Made by a program: the position numbers and the translations under genes. From Caldilineaceae bacterium (GTDB lineage: Bacteria > Chloroflexota > Anaerolineae > Caldilineales > Caldilineaceae), in assembly GCA_011523365.1 (NCBI GenBank), contig WTGY01000140.1, positions 1 through 64,000 on the forward strand: a stretch of 64,000 bases of DNA, in the 5' to 3' direction. Every line of letters starts with the position of its first letter. Position 1 is the stretch's first letter. Of this stretch, positions 52,640 through 57,100 are shown piece by piece. The notes beneath the pieces are model-generated. The model did not search any database. It was not told the DNA's origin and saw only the letters and a program-made list of their open reading frames with translations.

Positions 52640-53266
52640 ATGAAAGCATTCACAGTCATGTGGCGCACGATTAAGGCGCTCTATGAAGATCTGCTCCTAT
52701 GGGTCTGGCTAAGCGTCCTCTGGTGGGTCGGGATTTTCCTGATATTGCCTGCGGGCCCGGTGACGGCAGGTATCCACAACGCGGCCAACCGCGTCGCCAA
52801 CTACCGCAGGGTGGAGAGCGGATTCTTCTGGGATGGCGCAAAGTCCACGATCGGCAAGAGCTGGCTCCTGCTCGGCATTAACCTGCTGATGATCGCCGGC
52901 GTCTCAGTAAACATCCGTTTCTACGGCGCCAGCACCGCCAGTTGGGCCCAGATCATCAGTATCGTTTGGGTCTGGATCCTGATCATCGTTCTCATGGCGG
53001 GTCAATACTTTTTTCCCTTGCTCTGGCAGCAGGACGAAATGAGTATCAAGATGGTCCTCAGAAACGCCTTCATTCTCGCCCTGCGCCACCCTCTCTATAC
53101 CTTTCTCATGTTCCTCTTCCAGGTCCTGTTGCTCGTCGTCAGTTTCGTTACCGTCTTGCCAATCTTTCTACTCACCCCGGCGGCGGTCGTGTTGGCAATG
53201 AACTTCAGCTTGGTCGGCTTGCTGCAGGAACTGGATCTTGCGCCGGAGCCGCCGCCGGGCGCGTAA
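52640..53266 (+). CDS. YesL-like (DUF624-type) membrane protein
   Basis: The 208-residue integral membrane protein has about five hydrophobic segments (near residues 20-45, 75-95, 105-130, 150-175 and 175-195) and a polar stretch LWQQDEMSIKMVLRNAF, as in YesL/DUF624 proteins. In Bacillus these sit beside carbohydrate ABC transporters and two-component genes, with unknown function. Here it stands alone before the molybdenum hydroxylase genes with a 55-base gap. Assignment rests on topology and the LPAGPVTAG-like segment. Confidence 0.65.
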   Translation: MKAFTVMWRTIKALYEDLLLWVWLSVLWWVGIFLILPAGPVTAGIHNAANRVANYRRVESGFFWDGAKSTIGKSWLLLGINLLMIAGVSVNIRFYGASTASWAQIISIVWVWILIIVLMAGQYFFPLLWQQDEMSIKMVLRNAFILALRHPLYTFLMFLFQVLLLVVSFVTVLPIFLLTPAAVVLAMNFSLVGLLQELDLAPEPPPGA

Positions 53267-54187: not shown

Positions 54188-57100
54188 ATGCCCTCTTCAA
54201 TCTCACTCACAGTCAACGGTACCCACCACCATATCGACGTCTACCCCGGAGAGCTGCTGCGTACGGCTTTGCGCCGTCTGCGCATCTTCAGCCTCAAACA
54301 TGGCGACGAAACAGGCGAAACCGGCGCAGATGCAATTCTCTTCACCCGAACGCCGGACGACCCCAAAAGCTACCGCCTTGTCAACAGCGGAATCCTGCTG
54401 GCTGCCCAAGCTGACCGTGCTTCGGTCGTCACACTCGAAGGGCTGGAGGGCGAAGACGCTGAGGACGCAGAAAGGAGCTTGCAGGAACGCCTGTCTCCCC
54501 GCATCTCCACCTTGCAGCAGCAGTTCATCGAGTGCGGCGCAATTCAGTGCGGCTACTGCACGCCCGCGCAGATCCTTGCCGCCCAGCACCTGCTGGACAA
54601 GGAACCCCGGCCCAGCGAAGACGCCGTGCGCGAAGCCATTGCCGGCGTTCTCTGCCGCTGCACAGGCTACCTGAAACCTGTTCAGGCCATCCTCCGCGCC
54701 GCCGCCCAACTGCAGGGAGAGACCCCTCCTCCCCCGGAAATCGACGTGCGCGACGCCCCCGCAACCGGCGAATGGCCGGCCTCGGACCGGCTGCCCTCAA
54801 ACGGCTGGCACGACGGCGGGCCCGACACGCAAACACAGACCCGCACTGTCCCCGTGACCGTCGCGCCTCCTCGGACCCAGGTCGTCAACAAGCCCGAACC
54901 AAAGGTGGACGCCGTCAAACTGGCCAAAGGTCGCCCCGTCTTCGCCGACGATGTCGAGCTGCCCGGTATGCTCTATGGCGGCCTCCTCACCAGCCCCGTC
55001 GCCCATGCCCGCATCCTTTCCATCGATACCGCCGACGCGCTCGCGTTGCCCGGCGTGCACGCCGTCCAGACCTACGCCGACCTTCCCCGCGTCATCTACG
55101 CCAGCGGCGGCCAGAGCTATCCCCAGCCGCCCCCCTACGACCAGGTCTGCCTCGATTCGAAAGTTCGCTACGTCGGCGACAGGGTGGCCACCGTTGCCGC
55201 TGAAACACCGGAGCTTGTACAGGAGGCACTGGAACGCATAAAAGTCGAATACGAAGAGCTGCCCGCGGCCTTCTCACCTGAAGAAGCCATGCAGACCGGC
55301 GCGCCCGTGATTCACGACGAAGATGACGCCCAAATGATTCACGACGCCAAACGCAACGTTGCCGTCAAACTGCTCGTGGACCATAACGACGTCGATGCCG
55401 CCCTGGAATCTGCTTACTTTGTCTTCGAAAGCGAATACCGCGTTCACCAGGTGCAGCAGGCCAGCATCGAGCCCCACGTCGTCATCACCTACTGGGATGA
55501 AGACGACCGGCTCGTCATCCGCACCAGTACCCAGGTCCCCTTCCACGTCCGCCGCATGGTCGCCCCCCTGCTCGGCCTGCCCGTCCGCCGCATCCGCGTC
55601 GTGAAACCGCGCATCGGCGGCGGCTTCGGCGGCAAGCAGGAGATGCTCATCGAAGACCTGTGCGCCCATCTCACCATTGCAACGGGCCGCCCGGTCAAGT
55701 TCGAATACACACGCCAGATGGAGTTTAGCTCCGCCCGCACACGCCATCCCCAGCGGCTGCGATTCCGCAGTGGCGTGGACGCATCCGGAAAACTGGTCGG
55801 GATGGAAGTCCGGGTGGTTGCCGACACCGGCGCCTACGGTACGCACGGTCTCACCGTGCAGATGGTCACCGGCTTCCGCGCCCTCAGCACCTACTGGCTG
55901 CCCGCAGCCCGCTTCGACTGTGACGTCGTCTACACCAACAAACCTGTGCCCGGCGCTTTCCGCGGCTACGGCGCACCCCAGGCCCTCTTCGGCCTGGAGC
56001 AGCACATGGAGGAGATGGCGCTCGCCTTCGGAATGGATCCGACGGAGTTCAAGCGCATCAATTGGGTGAAAGAAGGTGATTCGTTGGTGATGGCGGTGGC
56101 AATGGGAGAGGGGCGCGAGGGTTTTCCGCAAACGGTTGAGAGCAGCGGCCTCGCAGAGTGTGTCGAAACCGGGGCCGAGTCCATCGGCTGGCACCGCCGC
56201 AACGACCCCGATTGGAAGTCACCGCCTGACCGTCCCCATATCCGCCGCGGCATCGGCCTCGCAATCTGCATGCACGGGACCGGCATCGCCGGGCTCGACA
56301 TGGGCGCCGCCAGCATCAAGCTCAACGACGACGGCTCCTTCAACCTCCTCGTCGGCGCAACTGACCTCGGAACCGGCTCCGATACCGTTCTGGCCCAGAT
56401 CGCGGCCGAGGCGCTGGGCGTGCCTCTCGATCAGATCGTCATCTACAGCAGCGACACCGACTTCACACCCTTCGACACCGGCGCCTACGCCAGCAGCACC
56501 ACCTACATCTCCGGCGGCGCCGTACTCAAAGCCGTCGAGGATGTCAGCCTCCAGATCCGCCGCCACGCCGCCGCGCACCTGTTCGAGGGAGTCGACGCCG
56601 ATCAGCTCTGGCTGGAGGATCAGAAGGTCATTGCGCCGGGAGGACAGGCCGTTTCAATTGAAAAAGTCGCCCTCCACAGCATCCACCAGGAGGAGCAGCA
56701 TCAGATCATGGCCACCGCCAGCCACATGAGCTACGTCAGCCCCCCTCCTTTCGCCGCCCAGTACGCCGCGCTGGAAGTGGACACGGAAACCGGCCAAGTG
56801 ACCGTCGAAAAAGCGGTAATGGCTGTGGACTGCGGCATCGCCATCAATCCGGTCACCGCCAGCGGCCAAGTCGAAGGCGGCATGACCCAGGCTCTGGGCT
56901 ACGCCCTCTGCGAGGAGATGCCCTACGACGACAACGGCCGCCTCGAGGTCAGCAGATTCGGCGACTACCGTATCCTGGCCGCAAACGAAATACCCGAGCT
57001 CGACACCATCCTCGTCCAGACCTACGAGCCCACCGGCCCCTTCGGCGCCAAAGCCATAGCCGAAATCCCCATGGACGGCATGGCCCCCGCCATCGCCAGC

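Follow-up and report, generated by a model that had tools for sequence, protein, structure and literature searches.

Members of the xanthine oxidase family are normally taken to contain two [2Fe-2S] clusters; in the structures known from the family the distal cluster lies between the proximal cluster and FAD and links them, and a direct jump from the proximal cluster to FAD would be too long. Desulfovibrio aldehyde oxidoreductase (Mop; PDB 1sij and 1dgj), which has both clusters, is a single chain combining its Fe-S and Mo domains, and 4-hydroxybenzoyl-CoA reductase (alpha subunit, PDB 1rm6) is a member of the family that works reductively. Mop is without FAD (PMC3958847). Another member, E. 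coli XdhD, is the enzyme to which a recent report assigns an NADH-driven reduction of urate in the breakdown of uric acid in the gut (PMC12507026). As that report describes its assay, XdhD, which co-purified with a ~30 kDa band that is putatively YgfM, converts urate to 2,8-dioxopurine (yanthine) when 1 mM NADH is present in the mixture; the controls given in this description are omission of enzyme or of substrate, and an NADH-free control is not described there (PMC12507026). The report also proposes that E606 of XdhD orients urate, and points out a putative F420-dependent reductase in the SsnA clusters of Chloroflexota (PMC12507026). We describe here a relative of these enzymes encoded in the window, the 64,000-nucleotide stretch of Caldilineaceae contig WTGY01000140.1 that was analysed (Table 1).

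Table 1. Coordinates in the window of the molybdenum hydroxylase gene, its upstream neighbours and the sites discussed in the text
Feature	Position	Strand	Evidence
Membrane protein, family unassigned	52640..53266	+	no Pfam or NCBIfam match
YgfM-like FAD-binding subunit, 272 aa	53322..54140	+	Pfam FAD_binding_5
Molybdenum hydroxylase, probably XdhD-type, 1000 aa	54188..57190	+	Pfam Fer2_2, Ald_Xan_dh_C, MoCoBD_1, MoCoBD_2
Former distal [2Fe-2S] ligand positions	54305..54391	+	sequence, codons, alignment with cysteine-bearing homologues
8-residue insertion, ~residues 54-61	54347..54370	+	alignment; exact edges alignment-dependent
Proximal [2Fe-2S] ligands C121, C124, C156, C158, intact	54548..54661	+	codons all TGC
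Invariant Mo-site residues Q484, R592, E641, G728-T729-G730, E959	55637..57064	+	156-row alignment

Distal cluster ligands are replaced in a conserved Mo-subunit gene

The Mo subunit is a single fused chain made up of a ferredoxin-like domain without its ligands, the proximal [2Fe-2S] domain and the Mo domains. The first-pass annotation had claimed that all four distal cysteines are replaced and all four proximal cysteines intact, and both statements stand: D40 (GAC, 54305-54307), T45 (ACC, 54320-54322), D48 (GAT, 54329-54331) and G68 (GGA, 54389-54391) align with the canonical C-x4-C-x2-C...C of cysteine-bearing homologues at the same spacing, and Pfam gives no Fer2 (plant-type ferredoxin) match in the 1000-aa protein. 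The 8-residue insertion between the third and fourth ligand positions is common to the whole Caldilineaceae clade. The protein has the Ald_Xan_dh_C and MoCoBD_1/2 domains of the xanthine oxidase family, its proximal ligands and an FAD subunit, and lacks the distal ligands; its fold, its sequence and its Mo site place it in this family, and we therefore regard it as a variant. The missing ligands suggest that no cluster is bound at the distal site.

The AlphaFold2 model of the window protein has a mean pLDDT of 87.5 (~92 in the distal domain) and indicates that the distal domain keeps its fold despite the ligand loss; in the model of a double-loss relative both former cluster domains are likewise folded. 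Such predicted models contain no metals, and any filling of the former sites is not visible in them. By Foldseek, Desulfovibrio aldehyde oxidoreductase matches the window model along the whole chain, with the same fold at 26-27% sequence identity. The best PDB sequence match to the Mo domain is the alpha subunit of 4-hydroxybenzoyl-CoA reductase, which differs from the window enzyme in its separate Fe-S subunit and its substrate. The Moco-binding motif GGGFGGKQ is kept, as are R592 and E959. Q484, R592, E641 and G728-T729-G730 are identical in 156/156 rows of the family alignment, and E959 in all 154 rows that reach that position. The usual GQG triplet is GTG (window 56369-56377) in 156/156 family members, E. 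coli XdhD and Cetobacterium.

The gene for the FAD subunit, whose start was set by alignment, lies 47 bases upstream of the Mo gene. Its product is 26% identical to E. coli YgfM and retains the AGGT and TVGG motifs, so the suggested link between ligand loss and an altered FAD subunit is not supported. The membrane protein encoded further upstream is conserved in this position, ahead of the FAD gene, within the genus (87-100% identical) and probably does not belong to the enzyme.

Is the replacement a property of a working gene? We are close to certain that it is, on the following grounds. The distal site reads D/[STA]/D/G in 27/27 orthologues found within this genus and family (GTDB record names place the clade in Caldilineaceae, Chloroflexota), and all 27 also keep the insertion and the four proximal cysteines. 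Shared by 27 orthologues, with position 45 alone varying, this pattern is far beyond chance. The first-pass annotation had asked whether a clade shares the D/T/D/G pattern, and the clade shares it in this broader form. T45 itself is rare, which is why the exact-motif nucleotide pattern matched only the window in the phylum sample; the orthologues were found instead by protein searches. The frame of the Mo gene is intact with zero internal stops, and dN/dS (Nei-Gojobori, against ten relatives) is 0.05-0.27 for residues 1-85 and 0.05-0.17 for the Mo domain, values that indicate strong purifying selection. The Chloroflexota data are almost all metagenome assemblies; independent assemblies agree, and sequencing error, which the first-pass annotation had already judged implausible for four positions, is rejected. 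Decay to a pseudogene is rejected as well on the low dN/dS, the conservation and the intact frames. The annotation's view that the ligands are gone from a retained domain is thus borne out by the folded model and the 27 orthologues, and a search for a close cysteine-bearing homologue at the same locus found none. None of the eight cysteines is missing from sister enzymes (65-69% identity); of two more distant Caldilineaceae members, one (L083) has lost both clusters and the other (L084, incomplete at its start) has kept the cysteines.

Recurrence of ligand loss in the family

Of the 396 genomes sampled from the class, 236 encode the fused enzyme (E <= 1e-170), almost always in single copy; additional loci of the class and 80 named GTDB loci were used to read ligand states. 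The sites were readable in 153 non-redundant sequences: both clusters are kept in 64, the distal cluster alone is lost in 34, both are lost in 53 and the proximal cluster alone is lost in 2. Distal-only loss, as first described, is therefore right for the window and too narrow for the family. Cysteine-complete Chloroflexota relatives (for example L115, L119, L225 and L226) share the architecture and Mo site of the window enzyme and differ from it in having all eight cysteines. Double loss is seen in Anaerolineae, Caldilineales, Promineifilum, Aggregatilineales and Acidimicrobiia (Actinomycetota). The actinobacterial members (Acidimicrobiia MAGs and MedAcidi-G1) are double-loss in 11/11 cases (L249, L250, L252, L256-L258, L268, L277, L283, L284 and L287), and no cysteine-bearing form was found among them; the MedAcidi-G1 copy (L287:4001-6919) has one stop within the matched stretch, which is either a real stop or the match overrunning the gene end.

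Trees were built from residues 236-1000 alone, so that the ligand columns had no influence on them. The minimum numbers of changes were 7 for the distal state, 5 for the proximal state and 9 for the combined state with FastTree (155 rows), and the same minima were obtained with IQ-TREE under a mixture model (47 rows). Such counts carry no direction by themselves; we interpret the changes as losses, given that the outgroups have the full set of cysteines and that four ligands are unlikely to have been regained again and again. One clade for all proximal losses is rejected (AU test, p-AU 0.0009), and with it a single ancestral loss common to all as far as the proximal losses are concerned; on the trees the distal losses also appear independent. 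Domain swapping was considered as a cause of the patchiness; a tree of the Fe-S domains with the ligand columns masked, which is weakly resolved, gives a similar count (7 distal and 4 proximal changes).

The FAD subunit varies as well. Its motifs are retained in the window clade and in most STAD-group double-loss loci, and the DTDQ/DSSA group and some cysteine-complete relatives have an FAD subunit without the second FAD motif. The TxGG flavin motif is lost from the YgfM-like ORFs of L118, L120, L122, L145, L164, L167 and L172, and also in some relatives that retain both Fe-S clusters. No FAD subunit was detected near the genes of the SSCE subclade; in one of its loci a dihydroorotate-dehydrogenase-like gene (PRK07565, L203:7135-8271) that recalls C. 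difficile UacX lies immediately upstream.

Kinship to E. coli XdhD and purine-gene context

The best NCBIfam matches of the window protein are XdhA and TIGR03313 (XdhD type), both below cut-off (603 bits for TIGR03313 against a curated cut-off of 1101.9), and it is 38% identical to E. coli K-12 XdhD. E. coli XdhD-YgfM resembles the window system in its fused Fe-S-type and Mo chain, in the FAD gene directly upstream and in the GTG triplet, and window E641, invariant in 156 rows, aligns to XdhD E606. The distal cysteines are absent from both enzymes; XdhD differs in having lost the proximal cysteines too and in having Q at the R592 position. The first 170 residues of XdhD contain zero cysteines, its distal site being D/A/D/S and its proximal site S/N/S/D. 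The RefSeq label of K-12 xdhD (L303:9317-12187) is molybdopterin- and Fe-S-binding, yet all eight ligand positions are replaced. In the open-access literature we found nothing on point about Fe-S-less members of the xanthine oxidase family, and no paper noting the missing XdhD cysteines. A Cetobacterium somerae relative, surrounded by purine genes, shares the architecture and Mo site of the window enzyme and differs in its complete set of eight cysteines; because E. coli XdhD groups with this protein, its cluster loss appears to be a further separate event, a placement made less sure by long branches.

A purine/XdhD-type function is reasonably likely for the window enzyme, and its substrate is probably a purine (urate/yanthine). 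The window Mo gene lies outside any purine (ssnA) cluster, and some of its relatives sit within such clusters. The window genome encodes SsnA elsewhere (499 bits, cut-off 455.5), adjoining an F420-dependent NADP oxidoreductase, and XdhC-type proteins away from the window gene; F420-linked enzymes are found near several relatives. The purine locus L195:2214-15338 contains a double-loss enzyme, a cysteine-complete Se-dependent XDH, SsnA and 8-oxoguanine deaminase, together with an FAD-like subunit, XdhC and a luciferase-family enzyme that is possibly F420-dependent.

Electron flow to and from the Mo centre

Loss of the distal cluster would sever the relay that runs from Mo through the proximal and distal clusters to FAD. 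Passage of electrons straight from the proximal cluster to FAD, one of three options that the first-pass annotation had named, is unlikely on the distances known in the xanthine oxidase family, and it would leave the relatives without a proximal cluster unexplained. In the family as a whole the relay would have been severed repeatedly at differing points: at the distal cluster, at the proximal cluster, at both, or by a degenerate or missing FAD subunit, with the Mo site all the while under strong selection. Since these variants cut the chain at different places, a Mo site that no longer needs the relay is the simplest common denominator, and we consider it quite probable that the relay is unused. 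Our leading, though tentative, explanation is that the window gene encodes a functional XdhD-type enzyme in which the distal cluster is permanently lost, the Mo-to-FAD relay is cut and the Mo centre carries the two-electron chemistry to its end by itself.

In its most economical form such chemistry could proceed as follows: one purine would be hydroxylated, reducing Mo, and a second purine would be dehydroxylated, re-oxidising Mo (for example, xanthine via urate to yanthine), so that external electrons would be unnecessary. Oxygen exchange of this kind would need no relay and would offer a reason for selection to favour a severed one, since relay loss would stop electron leakage. Oxygen exchange between purines is unproven, and we regard it as somewhat doubtful. 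Pyrogallol-phloroglucinol transhydroxylase is a Mo enzyme with a net redox-neutral oxygen transfer; it belongs to the DMSO-reductase family and has an unrelated fold, so that the likeness is a functional analogy alone. The broader idea that XdhD-type enzymes, that of E. coli included, are electrically isolated purine transhydroxylases in which selection for insulation of the Mo centre has removed Fe-S and FAD is speculative and, in our estimate, unlikely.

Completion of the chemistry at Mo is consistent with the conserved ligand loss, the low dN/dS, the invariant Mo site, the recurrent losses and the folded domains, and also with the L195 purine locus, SsnA in the window genome, the absence of all eight ligand cysteines from XdhD beside their presence in its Cetobacterium relative, and the invariant equivalent of E606. 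Against it stand the position of the window gene outside a purine cluster, its TIGR03313 score below cut-off, possible ligation of some metal by Asp or Ser, and the FAD subunits with retained motifs in the window clade and most STAD-group loci, which an insulated enzyme should not need. NADH was, moreover, present in the E. coli XdhD assay as published (PMC12507026).

The alternative that best survives is a replacement electron route, in which a two-electron donor or acceptor (NADH, reduced F420) or a partner protein acts directly at Mo or at the remaining cluster and bypasses those that were lost; direct donation to the Mo site by F420H2 or NADH is the chief competitor of oxygen exchange. We hold this to be a genuine possibility, if not a probable one. 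It would fit the often-kept FAD subunits, the F420-linked enzymes near several relatives and beside SsnA in the window genome, and the dihydroorotate-dehydrogenase-like gene that stands upstream in a subclade without the FAD subunit. The formation of yanthine from urate by XdhD-YgfM in an NADH-containing mix also favours it, but the assay description does not include a control with NADH omitted (PMC12507026), and no conserved new partner shared by every loss type was found within the flanks examined.

A working relay with different chemistry, in which another metal or an unusually ligated cluster is held by Asp, Ser, Glu or Thr, would account for the polar and recurrent replacements: several lineages have D-[ST]-D at the distal site and another has S-T-[AS]-[DE], and within the Chloroflexota/Actinomycetota set each proximal loss shows S121 together with E158. 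This is improbable, however, as G68 has no side chain, the fourth distal position varies between clades (G, Q, H, A, V, Y, S, D or E), A is found at several former ligand positions, and spare cysteines near the lost sites are rare. Catalytic decay, with the enzyme on its way out or a non-enzymatic remnant, could be read from the loss of redox ligands (a classic sign of decay) and from the gene's absence from some genomes of the same genus and family, but is very improbable given the low dN/dS throughout, the identical Mo-site residues, the wide single-copy occurrence in the class and the activity published for E. coli XdhD (PMC12507026).

One family thus keeps its Mo site and sheds one or both clusters many times, in Chloroflexota, in Actinomycetota and in E. 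coli. For E. coli XdhD this means either that electrons reach Mo without Fe-S clusters or that the reaction differs from its appearance, and either outcome would be new. A laboratory E. coli enzyme, with a natural control that has all eight cysteines, makes the question accessible to experiment.
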